Shown here in pieces: positions 1 through 64,000 of a stretch of DNA of 64,000 nucleotides. Origin of the DNA: Heloderma charlesbogerti. Taxonomy: Eukaryota > Chordata > Lepidosauria > Squamata > Helodermatidae. The stretch is taken from positions 682,001 to 746,000 of the forward strand of contig JANEZZ010000297.1 of the NCBI GenBank assembly GCA_026122225.1, read 5' to 3'. The notes beneath the pieces were generated by a model. It was not told where the DNA came from. It made no database searches and worked only from the letters and a program-made list of their open reading frames with translations. Position 1 is the first letter of the stretch. Each line of letters opens with the position of its first letter. Made by a program: the position numbers and the translations under genes.

Positions 1-255
1 GACACAAATGGCGGCCACTATGATGGCCGCCATTTGCGGCTGCAGCAGCCTGGCAGTGGCTGGAGTCGCCGCCGCCACTGCCACCGCCACTTCATCCGCC
101 GCTGGAGCCGCCGCCAGAGCCAGGTAGGCTCTGTTTCACAGGGCTTTCACGGGGTGGTGGGGCGGGTTGCTCCATTCCGTCATGGATTCCAGGGGGCCGA
201 ATTCACTGGAATTTGGCCTCCCTGGGATCCGTGGCGGAATTCTCTAACATCCCTA
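1..255 (-). mobile_element. Family P fold-back hAT-like MITE, copy A (cut by window start)
   Basis: This is the right part of a family P element whose left part lies before the window. It ends in CATCCCTA at 248-255, preceded by a GGCGGAATTCTC-type end that is shared with several other copies. Near the window start, about 7-37, there is a hairpin of CAAATGGCGGCC pairing with GGCCGCCATTTGCG. A donor-like CAGGTAGG lies at about 120. Only one flank is visible, so a target duplication cannot be tested. The copy encodes no protein. The open frame at 34-489 runs out of the element into unique sequence and is not a gene. Confidence 0.85.
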
Positions 256-3703: not shown

Positions 3704-4185
3704 TAGGGATGGCGGAGAATTCCGCATGGAGGCCAAGCAGGCCGGATTCTTTAGAATCCAGCCCCCCAGAGTCCATGGCGGAACGGAAGGCTTAACCCCA
3801 CCTCCTCGTGGAATCCTCTTCGGCCGGATCCTCTGGCTCAGATTGCCAGCGATACGGCCGCCATGCCGTATCACTGGCTGAAGGGGACGTACTGCAGCCG
3901 CAAAACCACATTTATGGCTGCATTTACCTTACACTAAGGCCTTTATGGCCGCAAATGGCATCCCGGATGCCATTTGCGGCCACAGCACGTCACGTCACCT
4001 TCAGCCAGCGATACGGCATGGCGACCATATCAGTGGTGCTTTGGAGCCAGCCGGTGGCTCCTAAGAATCGCTGCGGAGTGGAGCCAGCTGGCCAGGATTC
4101 CGGGGGGGGGGGGTGGAGAACTGATCGCCTCCTCCCCCCGGCAGACCCCCAGTGGAAGGCAAGGTAAGGGATTCATACATCCCTA
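3704..4185 (+). mobile_element. Family P element, divergent subfamily, copy B
   Basis: The 482-bp element runs from TAGGGATGGCGGAGAATTCC to ATTCATACATCCCTA. It has a perfect 8-bp target duplication CTTTGGAT at 3696-3703 and 4186-4193. The ends match the other family P copies, and the GGTAAG donor-like site near the right end (4163) is present. The internal hairpins differ, however. In place of the GATAGGCTACGTA stem it has a CCAGCGATACGGC stem (about 3846-3878 and again near 4005-4050), with a GCAAATGGCATCC/GGATGCCATTTGCGG hairpin at the centre (about 3951-3981). It encodes no protein. Confidence 0.85.
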
Positions 4186-12494: not shown

Positions 12495-12874
12495 GGCTCC
12501 TTCACACAGAGCTTTTACCCTGTGATGGAGATGGCTCCTTCATGGAAGTTTGTAGGTTCTTTACATGGCGCTCTGATCATCCAAGGCGTCTCCTGCACTA
12601 AATGTTCCATTTTTATCACAGATCACAGATAATGAGCTAGCAAATTATCCCATTGGGTTCCTCTTCAGTTTCCTCCATGAAAACAGTAAAAGCAGCAAGA
12701 AGAGGAGCGAGATCAATGAAAGATAATGGAAGATTCAGATACGGTGAGAAGGAGGGGGGAAGGGGTCGGGGGAAAGGAAGCACATGAAAAGGGGAGTCGT
12801 CGTGATCCTGCATTTAAAATGGAAGCAGAAAGCCCCATTTTAAATGCAGGATTTTAGGCTGGTGTAGAGATGCC
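12495..12874 (+). mobile_element. Family R DNA element (GGCTCCTTCACAC terminus)
   Basis: The left end GGCTCCTTCACACAGAGC pairs imperfectly with the right end GGCTGGTGTAGAGATGCCC. Near the right end is the hairpin ATCCTGCATTTAAAATGG / CCATTTTAAATGCAGGAT. A reverse-complement copy with the same hairpin lies at 34,284-35,408. It is non-coding, and the superfamily is not assigned. Confidence 0.7.
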
Positions 12875-12978: not shown

Positions 12979-13814
12979 TAGGGATGGGGGAGAATTTCTC
13001 CCCGAAACTTCGGGGGGCCGAGTGCCAACGTGTTCGGCCCCCCGAAGTAGTTTCAGGGAGAAATTCTCTGCACCCCCCCGCCCCCCCCGGATGGGACTTA
13101 CCTTTCCTGAATGTCCCTCCCAGCGGCGGGTCCCGGTGGCGGTTCGTCAGGTCTTCGACAGGGGCAGAGGCGGCAGCCGGTCTTTTGACCGGCTGCCGCT
13201 GCTGCCATTCCAATAAAAGTAAAAAAAAAAAAAAAAGCCCCCATGATAGGCTACGTGATGATTAACGTAGCCTATCACGGCTAGATTTGCAAAGTCAGCC
13301 GTGATAGGCTATGTAAATCGTCACGTAGCCTATCACAGGTGACTTTAAAAAAAAAAAAAGCGCATACGGCTAATGGCGGCTCCCTATGGGCTATTTGCGT
13401 TGCCCTTATTTTCGCCGTAGTCTACGTAAAGATTTACATAGACTACAGCGACCAAATAAGGAACGCGAATGGCAGCTCCCTATGGGGGCCGCCATTTGCG
13501 TACGTGTTTTTTTTTTTTTAAGTCACCCGTGATAGGCTACGTGACGATTAACGTAGCCTACCATGGCTGACTTTGCAGATCTAGCCGTGATAGGCTACGT
13601 TAATCGTCACGTAGCCTATCACGGGGGCGTTTTTTTTTTTTACTTTTTATTTCGTGGCCGGGCGAGGCAAGGTGCCTCCTCCCTGGCCTGAATTTCGGCT
13701 GGGCGAGGCGGGAAGCCTCCCCCCTGGCCTGAACTTTGGGGGGAGCAGCGAAGCACCTCCCTCCCACCGCAAAGCACGCTGCGAGACCAGGTAAGTGGCT
13801 TTCGTGCACCCCTA
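12979..13814 (+). mobile_element. Family P nested-palindrome element, copy C
   Basis: The 836-bp element starts TAGGGATGGGGGAGAATTTC and ends TTTCGTGCACCCCTA. The left flank CCTGCACC recurs as GCTGCACC beginning two bases after the right end, which is compatible with a slightly altered 8-bp duplication. It holds at least five hairpins of the GTGATAGGCTACGT/ACGTAGCCTATCAC type (about 13,242-13,338 and 13,530-13,622, plus a GTAGTCTACGTAA variant at about 13,412-13,446). Between them are GGCGGCTCCCTATGGG hairpins and A/T runs. Outward donors are present at both ends: GGTAAGT complement at about 13,098 and CAGGTAAGT at 13,789. It encodes no protein and is the sister subtype of copy D. Confidence 0.88.
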
Positions 13815-14370: not shown

Positions 14371-14506
14371 CAAGAGTGGGTAACTTACAGCCCTCTACAT
14401 GTTTTGGCCTACAACTCCCATCAGCCCTAGGCAACATAGCCAATGGAGAGGGTTGATGGCAGTTGCAGGCCAAAACATCTGGGGGACCACAAGTTGCCCT
14501 CCCCAA
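14371..14506. mobile_element. Palindromic hAT-type MITE, family W, second copy
   Basis: The arms TTTTGGCCTACAACTCCC and GCAGGCCAAAACATCTGGGG form a long hairpin with ends CAAGAGTGGGTAACTT and AAGTTGCCCTCCCC. It is closely similar to the element at 868-1003. The target duplication is not clear. Confidence 0.7.
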
Positions 14507-22545: not shown

Positions 22546-25431
22546 TCAAAACCTGTAAGTGGTCTTCTCCAGGACTTCGAGGTAATCCGGCTTGGTTTGG
22601 AGTTTGGCCCTTAACTCGAGGTATTCACTTTGGGGGGTTTGGTGGTGGTCTGGGAAGCCCTTACCGGCCGAGAAGAGAAGGGTTTCTTTCAGCCTGGCGT
22701 CCTGCTGCAGGTCTGGGTATTGCATGCCAGGGGGGTGCACGTGCAGTTCCTTTAATTTGGGCACTGTGCCGTAGAGACAGTCCACAAAGCCCACTGTACA
22801 CGGAGGGGCTAAGGGGGGCCTCTCCCTGCTGTCTAGAACGGCACCACTAGGGGGGAAAAGCACCACCCCACCATTCTTCTCATGATGGAAGACCGGTGGC
22901 ACCAGTGTTAGCTCCCCCATGAGAGGCAGCCCCCCACCAATCCCCCCTCCAGGTGGGTGGGGGTGATGGTTGGTGGTCACTATGGTGTTGAGCTGTGAGC
23001 TGGACACAGCCAGGCTCCACTCCTTCTCCTTCTCCAACAAGGTCCTGTAGCAGCTCCCGCTCCCGCTGTCCTTAGCGGGATCGGCAAACTGTTCCCCTGC
23101 ACAGCCACCACCTCCACCTCCCAGAAGGATGTCCCCCGGTTGCCCAGGCTCCCCTGCTACCACTTCGTCCTCCTCACGTGGCTTGTAGATGGGGTTGTTG
23201 CACATCTGGGTCACTGGGTGTGGGATGTAGTCGTATACGTGGCCCACTGGGGGGGCCTTCTCTGGGGAGGCACTGATTCCCCCACTTCCTCCACCTCCAC
23301 CCTCCTCGAAGAGATGGTGGCATTGCATCTGGATGCCTGTCAAGTCGAGGGCCTCCTGCCGTTGCTTGTTCCGGAAGGGTAGATTCTTGCGCCGCCGGCG
23401 GAGGACAAAGGCAAAAAGGCCCGCAGCAATGAAGACCGCGGAGAAGAACAATACAAGGAGACTGAGGATGAGCACGGACAGTGGCACAGGGCCTCCTCCA
23501 GCCGGGGCGAGTTCATAGGGTGAGGGACTGGTGGGGCTAGGGTGGCCATGGCCCCACGCTGGTGGGGCTGGTGAGGCAGTGGCAGCATGCAACATTTCAG
23601 GGCACAGCACCTCCAGCTCCACAGAGCGGATCTCTCTGTTGGTGAGGTTCTCCGGGCTGGCACAAAGCACGTCCCCCACCACGATGACTGAGCTGATGGT
23701 CTCAATCCACTGCTTGAGAGGCACCAGATCACACGTGCAATCCCAAGGGTTGAGCTTCAGGTCAATCTGTACAATGGCGTTGAGGTGTTCCAGCACACCA
23801 GCCACTGGCAAGTATAGGAATTTGTTGTTCCTCAAGTTGAGCCTGGCCAGGGAGGTACCGGCGAAGGCATCGGTAGGCAGGGTCCTCAGTAGATTGTCAT
23901 TGAGGAAGAGCAACTTCAGGTTGGGCATGAGACTGAAGGCAGCAGGCTGGATCTCTCTGATCTGGTTGTACTCAAAGTACAGGTAATGCAAGCTCTGCAG
24001 GCCCCGAAACATGCCCGGGGTCAGCCTCTCGATGTCATTGCCATTCAGGTACAGGCTCTTCAGGTTGGGCAGATTAATAAAGGCCCCATCCTGCACATAG
24101 GAGATCCGATTATTCCCAAGATGCAGGAGATCCAAGGAGGAAAAATTCCAGAAATCGGAACGGTAAATTCTCTGTATCAAATTTCCACTCAGGTAGAGTT
24201 TCTTGGCATTGACAGGCCTGGGAAGCAGCTCAGAAATATTGTGGAACCCTCTTTCCTTGCAGTTGACTGTCAGGCCCAAATCATTGATGTGCAAACTGCA
24301 AGAGCAGCCGGTGGGACATATAATGGGGATGGGAGGCCTCGTCTGATACCCAGCGATTGGAGGCTGGTTGGGTGCAGGGTATAAACCTCGAGGTGTTGGG
24401 GGTGGTTTATGTGCCCTGGGCTGTTTGGTAGGTTTGGGCTGCTTAATGGAGGTTTTGTATTCGACAGAGGAAGCCGTGAAATGGAAGGAGGACAACATGG
24501 AAGAAGGTTTAGTAGGCCACGCGTTCTCCTTGCTTGAGGGCAACTGGGGGACACCAATGCTGACCAGCTCTGAGTCAGACAGCATCGGGCAGAGTTTGTT
24601 TCTTTTAATTTCCCTTAGGTCCTTACCATGGAAGTGGAAAGGGGTCTCACACGTGATGTCTCCCACAAGGGCAGTGTAAGGGATGCGCTCCAGCCAGCTC
24701 TTGAGCTGAACAATCTCACAAGTACAGTTCCAAGGGTTCTCTTCCAACTGGATTTCCATCAAGCTCCTGCTAATATGGTCCAGCATGCCTCGGTAGGAGA
24801 GCACTTTCAACCTGTTTCCACGCAAGTCCAAGTGAGTTAAGGACACAGATTTAAATAAATTGGTGGGAAGCATGGGAATAAGGTTGTCGTTCAGGATCAG
24901 AACTCGCAGCTTGCTCAGATTGCGGAATGCCCCACTTTCAATCCGCTTAATGACATTGTAATCTGCCTGCAGATATTCCAGACTCTCCAAGCCCAGGAAA
25001 GTATCGTTTCGGAAAATGTCTAATTTATTCTCATGCAGGTACAACCTCTTCAAAATTTTAAGCCCATTAAAGGCTCCCGTCTGAATGTCTTGTAGTGCGT
25101 TGTTCCCAAGGTTAATAGAAACAGCATTGTTCAAGTGGAGAAAACTGTTGGTGTATAATCTCCTCATGGAGTTTCTCTGCAGGTAAAGTTTGAAAGGTCT
25201 CGACCATGACTCCGTTATCTGACTAATATTTATAAATCCCTTGTTGTCGCAGTGTATATGAAAAAGGCTCTCTTTGACTTCACAGTAACAAGGATCAAAG
25301 CAAGGTTCTTCTATTTCCTCCGAGTCCTCTATCAGGGGAATGGGGGTAGTCCATGCTACGGCAATTGTGCTTAGAAGAATAATCCACAGCATCCTTCTTT
25401 TACGGGGTGGATCTGCCGTTGGAGACTTCAT
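22546..25431 (-). CDS. SLITRK3: SLITRK3, SLIT and NTRK-like family member 3 (complete, single coding exon)
   Basis: The 961-residue type I membrane protein is a neuronal synaptic adhesion molecule. In mammals SLITRK3 binds presynaptic PTPRD and promotes inhibitory synapse formation. Residues 1-13 are basic and 14-27 are a hydrophobic signal peptide (LWIILLSTIAVAW). The first leucine-rich block has an N-cap (C44, C48, C50, C61), repeats to about 230, and a C-cap with C236, C238, C261 and C281. A proline-rich linker (about 300-368) follows. The second block has an N-cap (C372, C376, C378, C391) and a C-cap with C565, C567, C590 and C610. The membrane span is about 648-677, followed by RRRRK. 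The cytoplasmic tail ends YLEVLEKTTYRF, with Trk-like tyrosines. Length and start agree with the roughly 977-residue human protein, which also begins MKP. A is at -3 of the ATG. The linker, juxtamembrane region and glycine/proline-rich tail differ most from mammals. No frameshift or stop was seen. Confidence 0.97.
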   Translation of the reverse strand: MKSPTADPPRKRRMLWIILLSTIAVAWTTPIPLIEDSEEIEEPCFDPCYCEVKESLFHIHCDNKGFINISQITESWSRPFKLYLQRNSMRRLYTNSFLHLNNAVSINLGNNALQDIQTGAFNGLKILKRLYLHENKLDIFRNDTFLGLESLEYLQADYNVIKRIESGAFRNLSKLRVLILNDNLIPMLPTNLFKSVSLTHLDLRGNRLKVLSYRGMLDHISRSLMEIQLEENPWNCTCEIVQLKSWLERIPYTALVGDITCETPFHFHGKDLREIKRNKLCPMLSDSELVSIGVPQLPSSKENAWPTKPSSMLSSFHFTASSVEYKTSIKQPKPTKQPRAHKPPPTPRGLYPAPNQPPIAGYQTRPPIPIICPTGCSCSLHINDLGLTVNCKERGFHNISELLPRPVNAKKLYLSGNLIQRIYRSDFWNFSSLDLLHLGNNRISYVQDGAFINLPNLKSLYLNGNDIERLTPGMFRGLQSLHYLYFEYNQIREIQPAAFSLMPNLKLLFLNDNLLRTLPTDAFAGTSLARLNLRNNKFLYLPVAGVLEHLNAIVQIDLKLNPWDCTCDLVPLKQWIETISSVIVVGDVLCASPENLTNREIRSVELEVLCPEMLHAATASPAPPAWGHGHPSPTSPSPYELAPAGGGPVPLSVLILSLLVLFFSAVFIAAGLFAFVLRRRRKNLPFRNKQRQEALDLTGIQMQCHHLFEEGGGGGSGGISASPEKAPPVGHVYDYIPHPVTQMCNNPIYKPREEDEVVAGEPGQPGDILLGGGGGGCAGEQFADPAKDSGSGSCYRTLLEKEKEWSLAVSSSQLNTIVTTNHHPHPPGGGIGGGLPLMGELTLVPPVFHHEKNGGVVLFPPSGAVLDSRERPPLAPPCTVGFVDCLYGTVPKLKELHVHPPGMQYPDLQQDARLKETLLFSAGKGFPDHHQTPQSEYLELRAKLQTKPDYLEVLEKTTYRF

Positions 25432-25451
25432 GGTTGTGATGGATTACAAAA
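25432..25451 (-). promoter_or_regulatory. SLITRK3: 5' UTR segment and splice acceptor of the SLITRK3 coding exon
   Basis: Upstream of the ATG the minus strand reads a pyrimidine-rich TTCTAATTTCTGTTTGCAG, then 20 bases of leader. The AG falls at 25,453-25,452, so the exon would begin at 25,451. A coding exon whose acceptor lies just before the start codon fits the known SLITRK gene plan of 5' non-coding exon(s) plus one coding exon. Confidence 0.8.
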
Positions 25452-33173: not shown

Positions 33174-34100
33174 TAGGGGTGCACGAAAGCCACTTACCTG
33201 GTCTCGCAGCTTGCTTTGCGGTGGGGGGGAGGCGCTTCGCTGCTCCCCCCGAAGTTCAGGCCGGGGGGGGAGGCTTCCCGCCTCACCCGGCCAAAATTCA
33301 GGCCGGGGAGGAGGCGCCTCGCCTCGCCCGGCCGCGAAATAAAAAGTTAAAAAAAAAACACACACGCCCCCGTGATAGGCTACGTGACGATTAACGTAGC
33401 CTATCACAGCTAGATCTGCAAAGTCAGCCGTGATAGGCTACGTTAATCGTCACGTAGCCTATCACGGGTGACTTTAAAAAAAAAAGCGCGTACACAAATG
33501 GCGGCCCCCATAGGGAGCCGCCATTCGCGTTCCTTATTTGGTCGCTGTAGTCTACGTAAATCTTTACGTAGACTACGTCGAAAATAAGGGTAACGCAAAT
33601 AGCGTTGCCCTTATTTTTGCGGTAGTCTACGTAATCTTTACATAGACTACAGTGACCAAATAAGGAACGCGAATGGCGGCTCCCTATGGGGGCCGCCATT
33701 AGCCGTACGCGCTTTTTTTTTTTTTCCAAAGTCACCCGTGATAGGCTACATGACGATTTACATAGCCTATCATGGCTGACTTTGCAAATCTAGCCGTGAT
33801 AGGCTACGTTAATCGTCACGTAGCCTATCAAGGGGGCGTTGTTGTTTTTTTACTTTTATTGGAATGGCGGCGGCGGCAGCCGGTCAAAAGACCGGCTGCC
33901 ACCTCTGCCCCTGTCGAAGACCTGCCGAACCGCTGCTGGGACCCGCCGCTGGGAGGGACATTCGGGAAAGGTAAGTCCCATCCCAGGGGGGGCGGGGGCG
34001 AGGGGGGGCGGAGAATTTCTCCCCGAAACTACTTTGGGGGGCTGAATACGTTGGCACTCGGCCCCCTGAAGTTTCGGGGAGAAATTCTCCCCCATCCCTA
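33174..34100 (-). mobile_element. Family P nested-palindrome element, copy D
   Basis: The 927-bp element has ends TAGGGGTGCACGAAAG and TTCTCCCCCATCCCTA, with a perfect 8-bp duplication TGCTCAAC (33,166-33,173 and 34,101-34,108). About the middle, near 33,605, the hairpins mirror one another. Two GTGATAGGCTACGT hairpins lie on each side (33,370-33,470 and 33,738-33,835). Then comes a hairpin of GGCGGCCCCCATAGGGAGCC type on each side, a GTAGTCTACGTAAA hairpin on each side, and a central AACGCAAATAGCGTT. Outward donors flank the set: the CAGGTAAGT complement at about 33,192 and AAGGTAAGT at 33,967. It encodes no protein. It is the inverse-orientation sister of copy C. Confidence 0.92.
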
Positions 34101-34283: not shown

Positions 34284-35408
34284 GGCTTCTACACCAGCCT
34301 AAAATCCTGCATTTAAAATGGGGTTTTCTGCTTCCATTTTAAATGCAGGATCACAACTGACTCCCTTTACATGCACTCCCTTTTTGCCCCCTTTCCCCCT
34401 CCTTCTCCCCCGTAGCTGAGTCTTCCATTATCTTTCATTGGTCTTGCTCCTCTTCTTGCCACTTTAACTCCTTTCACAGAGGAAACCGAAGTAGAACACA
34501 ATGGGGCAACTTGATAGCTCATTATCTTTGATCTATTTAGGGATGTATGAAAGTCGCTTACCTTTTTGAAGGGTGACATTCACGGTGGGGGGGGAGGCGC
34601 TCCGTCCCTCGCCCCGAAATTCTCTCCGGACGGCTCCACTCCGCGGAGATTCCATGGAGCCACCGGCCAGGGCTGCCTGCAGCCAGACATCCAGCCTCTG
34701 GGCAGCCCGCCATTTGCGTCCCTGTATTTTGCCATAATAGCCTACATAAATATTTACATAGCCTATCACGGAAAAACAAAACAGCAGATGCAAATGGCGG
34801 TTGCTACGGTGGCCACCATCTGTGTTCCCTTTTTTTTCCGCACCATAATAGCCTACGTAAACATTTACGTAGGCTAAAACGGCAAAAAAAAAAGGGAACG
34901 CAAATGGCGGCCACCGTAGCTGCCACCATTTGCGTCCACTGTTGTTTTTTTTGTTTTGCCATGATAGGCTACGTAAATATTTACATAGCCTATCACGGCC
35001 TCTGCAGGGACACAAATGGCGTCCCTGAGTTAGCTGTGATAGGCTCCGTAATTATTTACATAGCCTATCACAGCTATAATGAGGAAGCGAATGGCGGCCG
35101 CAGACGCCGCCATCATTCGCAAGTCAGCGCGGACGGCAGCAGGTAAGTGCTCTGCTTCACGCGCCTTAAGTGGGGGGGCGGGGGGCTTCGTTCCGCCACG
35201 GATTTCAGGGGGCTGAATGCACTGGCATTCAGCCTCACCGAGATCTGTGGTGGAATTCTCTGACATCCCTAGATCTATTTAAAAATGGAACAAAGGGCAT
35301 TTAGTGCAGGAGAAACCTGGGATGATCACTGCATCGTGTAAAGAGGCTGCAAACTTCCGTGAAAGAGCAATCTCAATCACAGGATAAAAGCCCGGTGTGA
35401 AGGAGCCC
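34284..35408 (-). mobile_element. Family R DNA element interrupted by family P copy E
   Basis: Read in reverse this matches the element at 12,495: the right end CACACCGGGCTTTTATCC region near 35,385-35,408, CTCCTGCACTAAATG at about 35,300, and the TTTAAAATGG hairpin near 34,310-34,357. Copy E, with a perfect GATCTATT duplication, splits it between 34,537 and 35,272. The non-inserted length is about 380 bp, the same as the other copy. Confidence 0.75.
34538..35271 (-). mobile_element. Family P nested-palindrome element, copy E
   Basis: The 734-bp element starts TAGGGATGTATGAAAGTCGC and ends AATTCTCTGACATCCCTA, with a perfect duplication GATCTATT (34,530-34,537 and 35,272-35,279). It contains four TAGGCTACGTAAAT-type hairpins (about 34,730, 34,850, 34,960 and 35,036) alternating with GCAAATGGCGGC hairpins. 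Donor-like sites are at 34,558 (AAGGTAAGC complement) and 35,139 (CAGGTAAGT). It was inserted into family R and is therefore younger than it. Confidence 0.92.
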
Positions 35409-37073: not shown

Positions 37074-38148
37074 CTAGTTTGTATGATCACTGTAACCCAA
37101 CATGGTTTATTAGCCATGGTGGGTTGCAGCACCCGTGGGGGCCCTGTTGGCAATCCAAGCCCCTGATGCTGCAGTTTCTCATAGGGATGTACGAAACACT
37201 TACCTGGTTTCGTCCCGGAACATCCGTGGGGGGGGGGAGGCGCGCCGTCCCTCCCCCCAAAATCCTCCCTGGCGAGCTCTGCTCTGTGGCGACTCCGTGG
37301 AGCTGCCAGCCGGGGCCGCCCGCAGCCGGACATTCAGCCGCTGCTGGGCTGCGCAGGGATGCAAATGGCAGCTGCCGTAGCCGCCACCATTTGCGACCCT
37401 GTCTTTTGCCATGATAGGCTATGTATATATTTACATAGCCTATCACGGCAATAGGCAAGAATGCAAATGGCGGCTGCTACGCCATTTGCGCCCCTGTCTT
37501 TTGCCGTGATAGGCTACGTAAATATATACGTAGCCTATCACAGCAAAAATCAGGGACGCAAATGGTGTAGCGGCCGCCATTTGCGTTCCTGCCTATTGCC
37601 GTGATAGGCTATGTAAGTATTTACGCAAATGGCATCCCTGCGTTAGCCATGATAGGCTACATAAATAGTTACATAGCCTATACGGCCATTCGTGGGAAGG
37701 CGAATTGCAGCCGCAGACACGGCAGCCATTCGCAGAGCAGTGGACGGCCGCAAACAGGTAGGCTCCGTTCCGGGCCCATTTCCAGGGGTGGCGGGGGGGT
37801 TCCTTTGTTCCGCCATGGATTCTGGGGGGCCGAATGAACTGGAATTTGGCCTCCCTGAAATCCGTGGCGGAATTCTCCAACATCCCTAGTTTATCGTTAC
37901 GTGCGAACCTGGTGAGGGTGCTTGTTGGGGTGGTTGACAAGCCACCCAGGACCCATGGGCTCTCTTAGTGTTACAGGCGACTTGTCAACCCCCCTGCCAA
38001 ATCCACCCATGCCAGGTTCACCTGTAATGAGAAGCTATGGCCCCCCCTCCCCACAACACCCCAAACTTTCAAAATGGTGGCTGCTGCTACAACGAGAAGA
38101 CCTGCAGGGAAATTCACCCATGGTGGTTTCTCATTATGTGCAAACCTG
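37074..38148 (+). mobile_element. Family S element inside family Q, itself split by family P copy F
   Basis: The left end CTAGTTTGTATGATCACTG and the right end TTATGTGCAAACCTG are imperfect inverted repeats. The interior shares GACAAGCCACCC words with the 51,603 element. It interrupts the family Q word AGCTACTGTGAGG, with flanks CTACTGAC and CCACTGTG (5 of 8). Without copy F and its duplication the length is about 360 bp, equal to that of the 51,603 element. Confidence 0.65.
37182..37888 (-). mobile_element. Family P nested-palindrome element, copy F
   Basis: The 707-bp element starts TAGGGATGTACGAAACACTT and ends AATTCTCCAACATCCCTA. The flanks GTTTCTCA and GTTTATCG agree at 6 of 8 positions. 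GATAGGCTATGTATATAT-type hairpins occur at about 37,410, 37,503 and 37,648, with a half-hairpin near 37,600 that breaks off into GCAAATGGCATCC. CAAATGGCGGCTGC hairpins lie between them. Donor-like sites are at 37,198 (CAGGTAAGT complement) and 37,756 (CAGGTAGG). Confidence 0.9.
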
Positions 38149-40663: not shown

Positions 40664-41273
40664 TAGGGATGTTAGAGAATTCCGCCACGGATCCCAGGGG
40701 GGCCGAATTCCAGTGAATTCGGCCCCCCGGAATCCGTGGCAGAATGGAGCCCCCCACCCCACCATCCTGCGAAAGCCCTGCAAAACGGAACCTACCTGGC
40801 TGTGGCAGCTCCAGCCGCTGCCAGTCTGCGGCAGCCGCAAATGGCAGCCATCGTAGCGGCCACCATTTGCATCCCTACGCCAGCCCGTGATAGGCTACAT
40901 AAATATTTATGTAGCCTATAACAGCTAAAGCAGGGATGCAAATGGCCATTTGCGTCCCTTCTTTAGCCATGATAGGCTATGTAAATATTTATGTAGCCTA
41001 TCATGGGCTTGCGTAGGGTCGCAAATGGTGTCCCCTACGCAGGACACCATTTGCGTCTGCAGCAGCCTGGCAGCGGCTGGAGGCACCGCTGTGGGTTGGC
41101 CCGGCCAGTAGCTCCGCGACCTGGCCGCAGAGCGGAGCCAGCCAGGCAGGATTCCGGGGGGGAGAAACGGATCGCCTCCCCCCCCGTCAAGGATTCCGGG
41201 GGGAGGAATGGATCATCTCCCCCCACCTGCGGAACCTGGTGGAGCCAAGTAAGCGGGGTTTCCTACACCCCTA
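40664..41273 (+). mobile_element. Family P nested-palindrome element, copy G
   Basis: The 610-bp element starts TAGGGATGTTAGAGAATTCC and ends TTTCCTACACCCCTA, with a perfect duplication GCTATATG (40,656-40,663 and 41,274-41,281). Two GATAGGCTACATAAATATTT hairpins lie at about 40,886 and 40,968, separated by a short CAAATGGCCATTTGCG palindrome. The left end holds GGCCGAATTC/GAATTCGGCC inverted words. Confidence 0.92.
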
Positions 41274-44552: not shown

Positions 44553-45085
44553 TAGGGATGGCGGAGAATTCCGCCACGGATCTCAGTGAGGCTGAATGCC
44601 AGTGCATTTGCCCCCCCAAAATCCGTGGCAGAACGAAGCCCCCCGCCTCACCACTTCACGAAAGGCGCACGAAATGGGGCACCTACCTGGTGCCATTTGC
44701 GCTGCTTTACGAATGGCGGCCACGTCTGCGGTCGCCTTTCGCTTCACAATTTTTCCCATGATAGGCTATGTAAATACTTATGTAGCCTATCACAGCTAAT
44801 GCAGGGATGCCATTTGCATCCTTGCAGAGGCCGTGATAGGCTACGTAAATATTTACATAGCCTATCATGGCGAAAGAAAGGGTGGTGGCTACGGCAGCCG
44901 CCATTTGCTTCCCGGCATAGCCCAGTAGCAGCTGGATGTCGCTGTGGGCGGCCCCGGCCGGTGGCTTTGCGGAGTTGCCACAGAGCGGAGCCGCCCAGCA
45001 AGGATTTCGGGGGGAGGGACGGAGTGCCTCCCCCCCACCGCGGATGTCATGAAATGAAACAGGTAAGTCGTTTCATTCATCCCTA
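44553..45085 (+). mobile_element. Family P nested-palindrome element, copy H
   Basis: The 533-bp element starts TAGGGATGGCGGAGAATTCC and ends TTCATTCATCCCTA, with a perfect duplication AGCAGGAA (44,545-44,552 and 45,086-45,093). It has two GATAGGCTATGTAAAT hairpins (about 44,757-44,797 and 44,830-44,870). A CAGGTAAGT donor lies at 45,059, and the complement of a CAGGTAGG site at about 44,683. Confidence 0.92.
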
Positions 45086-45313
45086 AGCAGGAACCTGTTT
45101 GAATCCCTTATTGCCCAATCAGTTAAAGTTTAGTGGAATGTGGGGAGCAGAGCACAATCATGTTACTATTTATTTGACTGCTGTGCCGAAAACGTCTGCT
45201 CTTCCATTTCCGGCATTTCGTGGGGTGGAGGGGAAGGAAACTCTGGAGAAAGAGGCTGAGAGAGGTGAGAATTTTGAAGAATTCTTTCTTGGGGAGGGGA
45301 ACAGGGTTTCTAC

Positions 45314-46256
45314 TAGGGATGTACGAAAGTCACTTACCTTTGTGGAGCTTGAATTCGCGGTGGAGGGGAGGTGCTCCATCCCTCCCCCCAGAATCCTCCC
45401 TGGGCCGGCTCCGCTCCGCAGCGGCTCTGCAGAGCCGCCGGCCAGGGCCATCCACAGCCAGAGTTCCATCCGCAGACGGGCTGCTGCGGACGCAAATGGC
45501 GGCCACCATAGCGGCCGCCATTTGCATCCTGCGAAGCTGCCGTGATAGGCTATGTAACTATTTACATAGCCTATCACGGCAAGCCCCCCCCCAAAAAAAC
45601 AACATACGCAAATGGCAGCGGCTACAGCGGCCACCATTTGCCTTCCCTATTTTTAGCCGTTTTAGCTATTAAGGTGAAAAAAACAGAACGCAAATAGCAC
45701 CCACTACGCTATTTGCGTTCACCTTGTTCTCGCCGTAATAGCTAAAATGGCTAAAAATAAGGAACACAAATGGCGGCTGCCGTAGCCACCGCCATTTGCA
45801 TACGCTGTTTGTTTGGGTTTTTTGGCTTGCCGTGATAGGCTACGTAAATACTTGCACGAAAGCCACTTACCTTTGCGGAGCTTGGATTCGTGATAGGGGG
45901 GAGGCGCTCTGTCCCTCCCCCCGGAATCCTCCCTGGGCCAGCTCCGCTCCACAGCGGCTCTGAGGAGCAGCCGGCCAGAGCCGTCCGCAGCCAGAGTTCC
46001 GGCCATTCGCTTCCTCATTATAGCCGTGATAGGCTACGGAAATACTTACGTAGCCTATCACGGCTATAATGAGGAAGTGAATGGCGGCCGCCGATGCGGC
46101 CACCATTCGCAAGTCAGTGAGGACGGCAGCAGGTAAGTGTTCCGTTTTGCGCGCCTTTTGTGGGTTGGGGCTTCATTGCGCCATGGATTTCAGGGGGCTG
46201 AATGCGCTGGCATTCGGCCTCACCAAGATCCGTGGCGGAATTCTCTGACATCCCTA
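45314..46256 (-). mobile_element. Family P nested-palindrome element, copy I, with internal repeat of its own end
   Basis: The 943-bp element starts TAGGGATGTACGAAAGTCAC and ends AATTCTCTGACATCCCTA, with a perfect duplication GTTTCTAC (45,306-45,313 and 46,257-46,264). The first 160 bases recur imperfectly inside at about 45,855-46,012 (GCACGAAAGCCACTTACCTT, then GGGGGGAGGCGCTCTGTCCC), joined to a broken GATAGGCTACGTAAATACTT half-hairpin. The centre is GCAAATAGCACCCACTACGC, mirrored by GCTATTTGCG, with AGCCGTTTTAGCTATTA hairpins on both sides. No protein is encoded. Confidence 0.92.
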
Positions 46257-51602: not shown

Positions 51603-51962
51603 CTAGGTTCGCACAACACACTAACACATACTGAGTGGCTGAGTGTGGGTTGTTGTTGAACCCATGCTCACCGTTGCTTTGTTGTCTGAACACAGTGTGT
51701 TTTCCACAGGGTGGCTTGTTAACCATTCAGTGTGGCTTCTTTTTTCTCAAAAAGGCCACCTTAAGAGCCCATGGGTTGTTCAGGTTGGTTAACAAGCCAC
51801 CCTGCAGAAAACGTGCTGCATTCAGGCAACATGATAACCCAATCTGCTGAAAATGTGTTACATTCAGACAACACGGTAACCCATGGTCCAACAACAATCC
51901 ATGGTTCAACAACAACCCACACTCAACCACTGAGTGTGGGTTAGCATGTTGTGTGAACCCAG
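51603..51962. mobile_element. Family S fold-back element
   Basis: This 360-bp element lies inside the inverted repeat pair. Its left end CTAGGTTCGCACAACACAC and right end ATGTTGTGTGAACCCAG are inverted repeats. The inner arms carry GAGTGTGGGTTGTTGTTG / CAACAACAACCCACACTC and AACAAGCCACCCTG words. It is related to the element nested at 37,074. The target duplication is not clear. Confidence 0.7.
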
Positions 51963-52843: not shown

Positions 52844-53749
52844 GCAGCAGCATCCTGATCTTATAAACTGTGCATCAACTGAGAGCTGAACTACTGATAC
52901 AGAAATATCATGACACAGCTTTTGGGGAATGAGCAGGAGGGGGCCCAAATGCAGTGAGGCTAGCTTACTAAATTTTGAAATAAAATAATAAATACTACCA
53001 TCCGAAGACCCCCCCCATACACACACACACACACTAAGTTCAGCGTCTAAAATGTATGTTTAGAACTTCAGACTGCGGATGAGAGAGCTCCCCCAGTGCA
53101 AAATAAAATAACATTCCTTGCTTGTAGAAAACTAGCATGTCAAGGAGAAAGCTAACTATCTTCTCCACAATGTAGAGTAGGATATTTTGGGGGGCTGAGA
53201 AAGTATGAATGACTCTCCAGTGCTTCTCTGGGATCTCAGGCTGACATTCCTCCTACACTGGTGGCCTGAAGGCCAAACTAAGCATTTTTCAAATGACACA
53301 TAACAACTTCAGTGTGGCCGCAATTCAGATCAGGACCAAGGTACTTTGGGAGGGGAAGAGTTAAGCCTTTTCCCTTCCCATTCTCATCCCCAAATTCCCC
53401 TTGCCCCTGCTGGGGATGGGAGTTAAAAAGAAAACTGCATCTATTAATTTTTTTAAAACCCGACCCATGAGGGTTGAGGGGAATTTCAGGATGAAAACAG
53501 GAGAGGGGGCAGCTTAAATCCCCTCTGCCAGAATGCCCCTGTCCAGATCCAAGTTGGGGCTGCATGCACTTGCACTGAAGTAAATAACCCAATCACGCAT
53601 CGTGGTGGGTCACAGGCTTTACATGCAGATGGTTCACATCCTTGGTGTCTCCACTTAAAGGATTTTAGGGCCAAATTAGACATTCAAATCACGCGTAGCC
53701 CTGCTCTGCTCAGTGTGATTTGAAGAATGTCTCATTTGGCCGTAAAATC
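52844..53749. other. Non-coding spacer
   Basis: There is a short CA tract near 53,021-53,033 and G-poor unique sequence. At 53,635-53,680 a piece of the TCCACTTAAAGGATTTTAGGG sequence is repeated in inverted form around 53,740-53,765. No gene was recognised. Confidence 0.4.
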
Positions 53750-53822: not shown

Positions 53823-54104
53823 CCCCCATCCTTGCCACCATGAGCACACCTGAGAGGCAACCTCAGCTGCTCTGTCAAAAGTCAGAGATTGAACTAGGGA
53901 CATTTAGCTTGTCATCCTGAGCCATCCCCCAGCTGAGCCACTTTGGCACATGCGCAGCTCACCTGTGTGATGAAACACACGGAACAGCTGTAGTGGCTGC
54001 CAGTCACGGACAACCCTGCGATGCTGCCTCTCACTATCAAAATACTAGGTGCGCATTCGTGCACTGATGTCGCTGACTCTTCAGTAACTGAAACGCCTTC
54101 CAGA

Positions 54105-54974
54105 TAGGGATGTCAGAGAATTCCGCAACGGATCTCGGTGAGGCTGAATGCCAGTGCATTTGGCCCCCCGAAATGCATCGTGGAATGGCCTGCCACCCCC
54201 CCGCCCCCCACGGATCCCCCCCGGGATGAGACTTACCTGGGGCAGATGTTCCAGACGGTGGCAGCGGCGGCGGTGGCTGGTCTTCTGGCCGGCCGCCGCC
54301 ACCGCCATTTGCAGTCTGTGTCTTTTTTTTTTCATAGACGTGATAAGCTACATAAAGACTTATGTAGCCTATCACAACTGGGTTTTAAAAAAAACGCGTA
54401 TGCAAATGGCAGCGGCCACGCCTGCCGCCATTTGCATTCCTTATTTTTCGCCATCTTAGTCTACGTCAATATTTACGTAGACTAAGATGAAGAAAAGAAA
54501 AGGGAACGCAAATAGCGCCCACTATGCTATTTGCGTTTCCCTTTCTTTTCTTCATCTTAGTCTACATAAATACTGATGTAGACTAAGACGGTGAAAAATA
54601 AGGAACGCAAATGGCGGTGGCCGTATCCGCCGCCATTTGCATACGCCTTTTGTTTTTGTTTTTTAAACCCAGATGTGATAGGCTACGTAAGTCTTTACGT
54701 AGCCTATCACGGCTGAATACAGGGACGCAAACGGTGGCGGCTACAGCGGCCACCATTTGCGTCCCTGCAGGCTGCCCAGAGGCCAGATGTCTGGCTGCAG
54801 GCAGCTGGAGCCGGCCAGCGGCTCCATGGCTTGGCAGCGGAGTGGAGCCAGCTGGTCAAGGATTCCGGGGGGAGGGACGGAGCGCCTCCCCCCCGTTGAA
54901 GATTCCGGGGGGAGGGATGGAGCGCCCCCCCGCTGCAAATGAATCCACAAAATGGTGACTTTCGTACATCCCTA
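54105..54974 (+). mobile_element. Family P nested-palindrome element, copy J (clearest mirror architecture)
   Basis: The 870-bp element starts TAGGGATGTCAGAGAATTCC and ends TTTCGTACATCCCTA, with a perfect duplication CTTCCAGA (54,097-54,104 and 54,975-54,982). From the outside in, each half holds a GTGATAGGCTACGTAA-type hairpin (about 54,338 and 54,676), a CAAATGGC hairpin (about 54,400 and 54,608), a CTTAGTCTACGTCAAT-type hairpin (about 54,456 and 54,556), and AAAAGAAAAGGGAACG. These meet at GCAAATAGCGCCCACTATGC near 54,525. Each module is itself a palindrome and the order mirrors about the centre. A donor-like complement of CAGGTAAGT is at about 54,233. There is no coding sequence. Confidence 0.93.
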
Positions 54975-54982
54975 CTTCCAGA

Positions 54983-61112: not shown

Positions 61113-64000
61113 TCATGTTGTTGTTGTTCAGTTGTTAAGTCATGACCGACTCTTCATGACCCCAAGGACCATAGCACACCTGGCCTTCCTGTCCTCCACT
61201 CTCTCCCGGAGTGTGCTCAAGTTCATATTCATTGCATCAGTGATGCTATCTAGCCATCTCATCCTCTGCCATCCCCTTCTCCTTCTGCCTTATCTTTCAG
61301 GGACTTTTGCAGGGAGTTTTCTCTTTGCATTAGGTGGCCAAAATATTTGAACTTCAGCTTCAGGATCTGTCCTTCCAATGAGCACTCAGGGTTGATTTCC
61401 TTTAGGATGGACTGATTTGACCTCCTTGCAGTCCAGGGGACTTGTAAGAGTCTTCTCCAGCACCACAGTTTGAAAGCATCAATTCTTCGGCGCTCAGCCT
61501 TCCTTATAGTCCAGCTCTCACAGCCATACATTACTACTGGGAAAACCATAGCTTTGATCATACGGACCTTTGTCGGCAAGGTGATGTCTCCGCTCTTACT
61601 ATGCTGTCTAGATTTTCCATAGCTTTTCTCCCAAGGAACAAGCGTCTTTTAATTTCATGGCTACAGTCACCATCTGCGGTGATCTTGGAGCCCAAGAAAA
61701 TAAAATCTGTCACTGCTTCCACTTCTTCCCCTTCTATATGCCAGGAAGTGATGGGGCCAGATGCCATGATCTTAGTTTTTTTAATGTTGAGTTTCAAACC
61801 AGCTTTTGCACTCTCCACTTTCACCCTCAACAAGAGGCTCTTTAGATCCTCTTCGCTTTCTGCCATTAAGGTGGTATCGTCTGCGTATCTGAGGTTGTTG
61901 ATAATTCTCCTGTCAATCTTAATTCCAACCTGTGATTCATCCAACCCAGCATTTCTCATGATGTACTCTGCATATAAGTTAAATAAGCAGGGCGACAATA
62001 TGCTGCCTTGTTGTACTCCTTTCCCAATTTTGAACCACTCGGTTGTTCCATGTCTGGTTCTTACTGTTGCTTCTTGGCCCTCTTACAGGTTTCTCAGGAG
62101 ACAGGTAAGGTGGTCTGGTACTCCCATCTCTTTCAGAATTTGCCACAGTTATGATCCACACAATCAAAGGCTTTAGCATAGTCAATGAAGCAGAAATAGA
62201 CATTTTTCTGGAATTCTCTTGCTTTCTCCATGATCCAGCGAACGTTGGCGATTTGATCTCTAGTTCCTCTGCCTCTTCAAAACCCAGCTTGTACTTATGG
62301 GAGTTCTCGGTTCACATCCTGCTGAAGCCTAGCTTGTAGGATTTTGAGCATCACCTTGCTGGCATGTGAAATGAGCGCAATTGTACGGTAGTTTGAACAC
62401 TCTTTGGCATTGCCCTTCTTTGGAATTGGAATGTAAACTGACCTTTTCCAGTCTTGTGGCCACTGTTGAGTATTCCAAATGTGTTGGCATATTGAGTGCA
62501 GCACTTTAACAGCATCCTCTTTTAGGATTTTCAATAGCTCAGCTGGAAACCTTCATCTTCACTAGCTTTGTTGTTAGTAATGCTTCCTAAGGCCCACTTG
62601 ACTTCACTCTCGAGGATGTCCGGCTCAAGTTCAGTGACTGCATTATCATGGCTATCAGGGACATTAAGATCTTTCCTGTATAGTTCTTCTGTGTATTCTT
62701 TCCACCTCTTCTTAATCTCATCTGCTTCTGTTAGGTCCCTGCCTTCTTTGTCCTTTATCATGCCCGTCTTTGCACAAAACGTTCCCTTGATATCTCCGAT
62801 TTTCTGGAAGAGATCTCTAGTCTTTCCCATTCTATTGTTTTCCTCAATTTCTTTGCATTGTTAATTTAAGAAGGCCTTGTCTCTCCTTGCTATTCTCTGG
62901 AACTCTGCATTCAGTTGGGTATATCTTCCCCTTTCTCCCTTGCTTTTCGCTTCCCTTCTTTCCTCAGCTACTTGTAAAGCTTCATCAGACAGCCACTTTG
63001 CTTTCTTGCATTTGTTTTTCTTTGAGATAGATTTCATTGCGGCCTCCTGAACAATGTTACGGACCTCCGTCCATAGTTCCTCAGGCACTCTGTCTATCAG
63101 GTCTAATCCCTGAAATCTATTCCTCACCTCCACTGTATATTCATAAGGGATATGATTTAGGTCATACCTGAACGGTTTACTGGTTTTCACTACGTTCTTC
63201 AATTTAAGCCGAAAGTTTGCAACAAGAAGCTCATGATCTGAGCCACAATCAGCTCCAGGTCTTATTTATAGAGCTTCTCCATCTTTGGCTGCAAAGTACA
63301 TAATCAATCTGATTTCAAAATTGACGATCTGGTGATGTCCTTGTGTAGAGTCGCCTCTTGTGCTGTTGGGAAAGAGTGTTTGCTATGATCAGCGTGTTCT
63401 CTTGGCAAAACTCTATTAGCCTTTCTCCTGCTTCATTTTGTACACCAAGGCCATGCTTGCCTGTTATCCTGGTGATTTCTTGTCTTCCTACTTTAGCATT
63501 CCAATCCCCTATGATGAAAAGGACATCTTTTTTGGATGTTAGATCTAGAAGGTGTTGTAGGTCTTCATAGAACCAATCAACCTAGCTTCTTCGGCCTCAG
63601 TGGTTGGGGCATAGACTTGAATTACTGTGATGTTGAATGGTTTGCCTTGGATTCATACTGAGATCATTCTATCGTTTTTGAGATTGTACCCCAGTACTGC
63701 TTTTCCCACCCTTTTGTTGACTATGAGTGCTCCTCCATTTCTTCTAAGGGATTCTTGCCCACAGGAGTAGATATGATGGTCACCTGAATTAAATCCACCC
63801 ATGCTTGTCCATTTTAGTTCGCTGATTCCCAAGATGTTGATGTTCAATCTTGCCATCTCATGTTTGATCACCTCCAGCTTACCTTGATTCATTGATCTTA
63901 CATTCCAGGTTCCTAAACAATATTGTTCTTTACAGCATCGGATTTTCTTTTCACCACCAGACACATCCACAGCTGAGTCTCCTTTCGGCTTTGGCCCAGC
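61113..64000 (-). pseudogene. RTE/BovB LINE ORF2 (endonuclease + reverse transcriptase), decayed, continuing past window end
   Basis: The element reads right to left. The apurinic-type endonuclease starts GTWNVRSMNQGKLEVIKHEM, followed by ILGISELKWTSMGG (63,653-63,970). The middle region includes RFQGLDLIDRVPEELW (62,861-63,202) and EYTEELYRKDLNVPD (62,531-62,830). The reverse transcriptase fingers HASKVMLKILQARLQQ lie at 62,295-62,534, the block SPCLFNLYAEYIMRN and catalytic YADD within NNLRYADDTTLMAES at 61,558-61,998, and the C-terminal VMYGCESWTIRKAE and LWCWRRLLQVPW at 61,259-61,579. The 3' end has the GTTGTTGTTCAG-type terminus near 61,113. The frame changes at least six times, so it is not functional. 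BovB is known for horizontal transfer between squamates and other animals. Confidence 0.93.

Follow-up and report, generated by a model that had tools for sequence, protein, structure and literature searches.

The old question of how miniature inverted-repeat transposable elements (MITEs) arise, and how they keep a symmetric structure without coding for anything, is touched by several described systems. The hAT MITE Mar of Drosophila is non-coding, with short terminal repeats and 8-base-pair (bp) target duplications; hAT terminal repeats are given as 5–27 bp, and Mar and Vege measure 610 bp and 884 bp, respectively (PMC3517528). Foldback and Galileo elements have inverted repeats that are long and contain internal repeats, along with modules that vary (PMC2955051, PMC3573991, PMC4168063); the two repeats of one Galileo copy are 98–100% identical, and recombination and conversion among copies have been proposed (PMC3573991). 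For template switching there are reports that it makes the arms of inverted repeats uniform in yeast genes (PMC8604942), that it forms and repairs stems in RNA and accounts for their paired changes (PMC8794818), and that it extends the identity of quasi-palindromes (PMC3820800). These statements, like those on published work below, reflect the portions of each source drawn on here. Our subject is a repeat family in a 64,000-nucleotide stretch of the genome of Heloderma charlesbogerti (GenBank assembly GCA_026122225.1, contig JANEZZ010000297.1, positions 682,001–746,000 of the forward strand), referred to as the window and numbered from its first letter. Copy J, at 54,105–54,974, belongs to a ten-copy non-coding family, likely of the hAT class, whose core is a nest of inverted repeats, and we lean towards the view that its arms were rewritten through foldback template switching as subfamilies arose.

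A BLAST comparison of copy J with the window identified ten copies, nine of them complete, which account for 10.8% of its length. Like Mar, they are non-coding and of similar size (482–943 bp), and, being short, alike in their ends and present several times over, they answer to the description of a MITE. Terminal inverted repeats TAGGGATGT/ACATCCCTA are found in all nine complete copies with 0–2 mismatches per end. Exact 8-bp target duplications flank seven of the nine (c1, C, D, F, G, I and J), the 870 bp of J lying between two perfect copies of CTTCCAGA; the duplication is inexact in the other two, A matching at 7/8, offset by 2 bp, and E at 6/8. Target-site duplications of 8 bp and short terminal inverted repeats are the marks of hAT elements, whose terminal consensus is of the (C/T)A(A/G)NG type. 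Because the copies are short and non-coding, with 8-bp duplications and TAGGG ends, the family most likely consists of non-autonomous hAT elements. A Buster-type origin was considered and dropped, since none of the seven exact duplications reads nnnTAnnn by eye. The duplications of Mar do follow that pattern, and in the main text of the Mar paper, as drawn on here, 'palindrom' and 'secondary structure' have no occurrences (PMC3517528). The copies other than J are listed here.

1–255, reverse strand: copy c0, cut by the window edge
3704–4185, forward strand: copy c1, duplication CTTTGGAT; same ends, with another hairpin (d) flanking b on both sides
12,979–13,814, forward strand: copy A, close to C; duplication 7/8 with 2-bp offset
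33,174–34,100, reverse strand: copy C, inverted match 244/264; flanked on each side by the duplication TGCTCAAC; nested to a third level
34,538–35,271, reverse strand: copy D, duplication GATCTATT
37,182–37,888, reverse strand: copy E, palindromic units arranged nearly in tandem; duplication 6/8
40,664–41,273, forward strand: copy F, duplication GCTATATG; mirror runs into the outer parts
44,553–45,085, forward strand: copy G, duplication AGCAGGAA
45,314–46,256, reverse strand: copy I, duplication GTTTCTAC; chimeric, with the same collapse in its two c modules

A preliminary description of this DNA had read J as palindromes within a palindrome centred near 54,525, with GATAGGCTACG-, CAAATGGC- and CTTAGTCTACG-type modules as local inverted repeats. 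A stem search agrees on the modules, and the layered symmetry is borne out, with the mirror axis in module b', near 54,521. From end to end, J comprises the left end, a left-end hairpin, hairpins b-a-b-c-b'-c-b-a-b and the right end, the first b being represented by one recognised arm only. Module a has the form GTGATAGGCTACGT..ACGTAGCCTATCAC, and module c is a variant of a with TTAGTCTACG..CGTAGACTAA. The inner arms (54,387–54,516 and 54,526–54,655) are 88% complementary and 9 nucleotides apart, and the repeat extends outward through arms at 54,336–54,394 and 54,656–54,714, again at 88%. The pattern search for modules returned 27, of which 26 were carried forward as one duplicated another; modules that had collapsed or changed in length escape it. 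The features of J are given below, with the strand where one was assigned.

54,105–54,974, forward strand: copy J, complete (BLAST, ends and target duplication)
54,097–54,104: left target-site duplication CTTCCAGA, 8/8
54,105–54,113, forward strand: left terminal inverted repeat TAGGGATGT
54,120–54,186, forward strand: left-end hairpin, arms 54,120–54,151 and 54,156–54,186; 23/31 paired in J, 29/31 in F, 31/32 in A
54,291–54,516, forward strand: left arm of the core palindrome
54,340–54,375: module a (left), GTGATAAGCTACATAA..TTATGTAGCCTATCAC
54,402–54,435: module b (left), GCAAATGGC..GCCATTTGC
54,453–54,488: module c (left), ATCTTAGTCTACG..CGTAGACTAAGAT
54,508–54,534: module b' at the axis, GCAAATAGC..GCTATTTGC
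54,526–54,766, forward strand: right arm of the core palindrome
54,554–54,589: module c (right)
54,607–54,640: module b (right)
54,675–54,710: module a (right)
54,720–54,767: outer module b (right); its left counterpart is the single recognised b arm at 54,304–54,312
54,966–54,974, reverse strand: right terminal inverted repeat ACATCCCTA
54,975–54,982: right target-site duplication CTTCCAGA, 8/8

The two arms of such a structure are internal paralogues, as are the hairpins within them, and they can be dated against the divergence of the copies. Each copy was read outward from its axis to give a left and a right arm, and copies were compared two at a time. If the palindrome were old and its arms had evolved independently, corresponding arms of two copies should be alike. 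For J, C and I the comparison was confined to their shared homologous block, from b' to the first a, and gapped columns were dropped. Sites at which the arms agree within copies but differ between them, agree by side between copies, and agree crosswise number 26, 2 and 0 for J–C, 26, 1 and 0 for C–I, and 15, 2 and 4 for J–I. CpG decay as the source of these two-sided changes is rejected, since transversions make up 13, 14 and 5 of the respective within-copy sites. Identity within copies is 0.896, 0.880 and 0.833, that between copies 0.736, 0.673 and 0.721, and the block-bootstrap 95% interval of the within-copy excess excludes zero for all three pairs. Alignments show, in addition, that the same 19 bp of module c are gone from both arms of copy I. 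The arm tree of J, C, I, A and D agrees: the arms pair by copy for J (96/94), D (88/93) and I (72/74), and the four A and C arms group together (100/100). A wider tree again joins the arms of J (93/87), F (86/87) and I (83/79).

Close copies behave otherwise. Put through the same pipeline as controls, C–A gives 0 within-copy to 8 same-arm sites and G–E 0 to 15. The all-pair test, from which c0 (cut) and c1 (a different module) were excluded, favours within-copy agreement in 24 of 28 pairs and same-arm agreement in three (C–A, D–E and G–E), with F–E tied; the pairs share copies and are not independent, and only J, C and I of this set have one axis in common. Its J–C block took in badly matched outer columns, and the conservative shared-block counts above are used instead. 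Untrimmed arms that include the unmirrored ends yield more same-arm sites (A–C 71, D–E 37, F–G 30). Likeness of arms within one molecule is thus seen in J, C and I and is lacking for A against C, G against E and D against E. From the presence of the signal in J, C and I and its loss between A and C and between G and E, we conclude that symmetry was renewed in source lineages and then decayed. Homogenisation looks episodic: it would have acted on some branches and not on others, with no sign of it after the split of A from C or that of G from E.

The course of events that we favour is as follows. A hAT transposase supplied from elsewhere would move the copies. In source lineages a stalled nascent strand would fold back onto its own complementary arm, copy it and return to the template, which would make the arms alike again and let a change in either arm reach its partner. 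Once inserted, copies would decay without repair. Replication errors give inverted triplications of about 150 bp (PMC13334657), and events of this kind would suit as a route by which the array grows. Taken further, symmetry might renew itself as part of the life cycle, each new subfamily being founded by a source copy that rewrites one arm from the other at scales from 36-bp hairpins to the core of about 500 bp, so that a MITE family evolves by re-palindromisation and its changes come in mirrored pairs. This extension we put forward only tentatively, as a possibility that falls short of being probable.

A number of observations weigh against arm renewal by foldback template switching, at least as a universal rule. 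Four sites in J–I agree crosswise. The wider tree groups the arms of G and E by side (left arms 100/98, right arms 97/94); D–E (2 within-copy to 7 same-arm sites) and F–E (5 to 5) show that homogenisation is not universal, and the arms of D, which pair in the smaller tree, do so in only 20% of bootstrap trees in the wider one. Conversely, three pairs inside the group formed by D, E, F and G lean towards within-copy agreement, namely D–F (9 to 3), D–G (6 to 1) and F–G (3 to 2), and the signal in D–F and D–G blurs the distinction of 'within' from 'between' subfamilies. The sample is ten copies from one window, and the subfamilies are small and drawn by us. As for a transposase, no Pfam family of that kind was matched in the eight window open reading frames tested, nor was any Pfam family found in the two tested frames that overlap copies D and G. 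Lastly, the template-switch events described in the sources drawn on here concern short repeats, so that over longer arms fresh inverted duplication or double-strand gene conversion could yield equal counts.

The strongest competitor is fresh inverted duplication, by which the palindrome of each subfamily is made anew from a half element and no older one is repaired. It predicts the same within-copy pattern, and it accords with the different positions of the best axes, which lie on b' in J, C and I, on c in A and D, and on b in F and G. J, C and I, however, share both the b' axis and the order b-c-b'-c-b (the b' of C is shortened and the c of I collapsed), which would call for repeated origin at one point, and no half element was recognised among the nine complete copies. 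We regard this explanation as unlikely. Double-strand gene conversion, or recombination and conversion among copies of the kind proposed for Galileo (PMC3573991), could leave similar counts.

Selection for base pairing is a further candidate. The hairpins would be functional, as cruciforms for a transposase or as RNA hairpins, and compensatory mutations would keep their arms paired. Folding is indeed pronounced. The window has 40 local stems scoring at least 11, of which 29 lie inside family copies, against 0, 0 and 1 in three mononucleotide-shuffled versions of it; all ten copies have local stems. As single-stranded DNA, J folds at −288 kcal/mol, compared with −139 (standard deviation 5.9) for 20 dinucleotide shuffles, and folding with RNA parameters (eight shuffles each) gives z values of −11 to −44 for the nine complete copies against +2.2 to −7.4 for eight control windows. 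In the 36-bp a/c hairpin, both sides have changed in 7 of 16 stem pairs, and covariation is 0.201, against 0.130 (standard deviation 0.013) when shuffled and at most 0.076 when slid. Weaker measures on the same hairpin are reached more readily by shuffles, 27 of 500 being as high in the count of changed pairs and 204 of 500 in the count of pair types. Two-sided change is seen in the left-end hairpin also, and at both of these smaller scales it counts in favour of arm copying as well. All 14 pairs of A or C with seven other copies have 3–7 two-sided sites to 0–1, and all 21 pairs among those seven agree more often by side; c1, outside this set, gives a mixed result over nine pairs.

Copy I speaks against such selection. 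Its 19-bp loss destroys both c hairpins and yet the mirror is kept, so that selection for folding alone fits badly, and a matching second loss is hard to obtain except by copying. Moreover, the arm differences of A against C persist. Maintenance of the hairpins for their pairing seems to us, on these grounds, rather improbable. The preliminary description allowed a strand two ways of folding, into a single long hairpin or into several small ones in a row. On paper this is reasonable, J keeping 83% of its folding energy (81–96% across nine copies) when pairs are limited to at most 120 nucleotides, but the controls keep 86–89%, and the short-range ratio of J is therefore not special.

Symmetry could also be trivial, since a palindromic unit of about 95 bp, repeated in tandem, is symmetric at every level as a by-product. 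Copy E comes close to this, with 2.6 copies of 95 bp at 80% matches and alignments of 82/92 direct and 88/98 inverted, and for E the explanation is largely true. For J and C we reject it: their inverted alignments reach 288/360 and 244/264, against 149/198 and 87/100 for the direct ones. The spacers of J, furthermore, mirror and do not translate (15/17, 17/19 and 23/33 mirrored; 4/17, 2/19 and 16/33 direct), and J is thus more than a tandem array of palindromes. As an account of the family, the tandem array is very improbable. Still less credible, to the point of near dismissal, is the idea of several small elements inserted into one another, or of an assembly artefact, since modules recur in similar order across independent copies with target duplications of their own, even if copy I does contain a second element end.

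Inverted alignments that run through the element are found in C (244/264), A (192/212), J (288/360) and F (206/258), so that a dot plot does not lack the second, element-wide diagonal. The statement that J consists almost wholly of mirrored modules applies to its core of 476 bp (54,291–54,766), an inverted repeat composed of small ones, and fails for the outer parts of the 870 bp. These outer 186 bp and 208 bp match in mirror at the level of shuffles (54 of 200 as good), and a gapped alignment that carried the mirror out towards the ends of J (positions 14–801) was dropped on the same figure. The shuffle test covered seven copies; outer segments mirrored no better than shuffles in six (J, C, A, D, E and G; 22–96 of 200 as good), F being the exception with 0 of 200. 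As the outer parts add nothing over chance, we take the palindrome to be the core.

When the window was scanned for mirrored halves, each complete copy had a best score of 40.5–189, and the 95th percentile outside the copies was 20.5 (1409 centres). Some centres outside score high: one near 45,200, where G and I face each other in opposed orientation, has 77, and one at 53,700 has 67.5. A separate inverted-repeat signal lies outside the family at 51,700–51,900, with a score of 51 near 51,800.

Copies C, D and I had been said to share the plan of J. C is indeed the closest to it, but the best axis of D falls on another module and I is a chimera: element positions 147–404 of I (45,314–46,256) repeat 616–937 (209/258), and the repeat takes in an internal right end fused to one half of module a, as would result had synthesis jumped between copies. 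A and C show a third level of nesting, each arm having module a beside its own reverse complement. The two match at 36/36 (C) and 34/36 (A) in the right arms and at 31/36 and 32/36 in the left, whereas direct matches are 27–30/36. In copy c1, hairpin d stands on both sides of b, and its two copies match at 31/42 mirrored and 30/42 direct. Overall, the preliminary description was sound on layered symmetry, centre and recurrence; it missed the hAT class, the co-evolution of arms in J, C and I, and the symmetry that E obtains for free.

Compared with Foldback and Galileo, the present family has its mirror in the core, short ends, and modules that are hairpins in their own right (PMC2955051, PMC3573991, PMC4168063); long inverted repeats reaching the element ends are absent from six of the seven copies tested, F again being the exception. 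Palindromic MITE-like elements of Anopheles and C. elegans resemble the family in their palindromic repeats, and their described parts, as drawn on here, contain neither nesting of palindromes nor co-evolution of arms (PMC3212995). It had been held that layered symmetry is unusual; this is fair, with the qualification that palindromic MITE-like elements (PMC3212995) and Foldback-type elements with palindromic modules (PMC2955051) are precedents. Template-switch correction of quasi-palindromes shares with our case arms made identical and two-sided multi-base changes, but in the portions drawn on here it concerns yeast genes and reporters and RNA genes, not the renewal of transposon architecture (PMC8604942, PMC8794818, PMC3820800). 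Among the matches listed, from the titles and opening abstract lines of open PMC papers, there was no hAT MITE with nested palindromes. Three module strings of 12–14 bases had 0 matches in papers, Rfam at gathering scores had 0, phage records gave no match, and exact module and end patterns were found 0 times each in viral contigs. The family may already be catalogued in repeat libraries. What is likely new is a probable hAT MITE with nested palindromes together with evidence of episodic arm renewal.

If arm copying does renew the sources, long runs of paired changes in transposon hairpins need not imply selection for folding, and covariation in such repeats should be taken with caution as proof of function. 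Foldback template switching would then also be measurable genome-wide.

A conserved outward-facing pair lies inside the ends of the family, ACTTACCTG on the left and CAGGTAAGT on the right, each present in eight of the nine complete copies with at most two mismatches. CAGGTAAGT lies 25–28 bp from the right end and ACTTACCTG at element positions 118–129 (54,231–54,239 in J). The pair resembles the consensus of 5' splice sites; it may instead be a subterminal site for the transposase.

Other repeats are found nearby. One of about 245 bp with its own palindrome (ATCCTGCATTTAAAATGG..CCATTTTAAATGCAGGAT) occurs at 12,624–12,868 and 34,288–34,530 with 85% identity, upstream of A by about 110 bp and of C by about 190 bp, although the target duplications of these two copies differ. 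A simple palindromic repeat (TTTTGGCCTACAAC..GGCCAAAACAT) without layering has two copies, at 894–977 and 14,399–14,478. The window also has an RVT_1 reverse transcriptase fragment on the reverse strand at 61,558–62,082, which we take to be like RTE/BovB, and, at 22,546–25,443 on the reverse strand, an open reading frame of 965 amino acids with leucine-rich repeats that matches SLIT and NTRK-like proteins.
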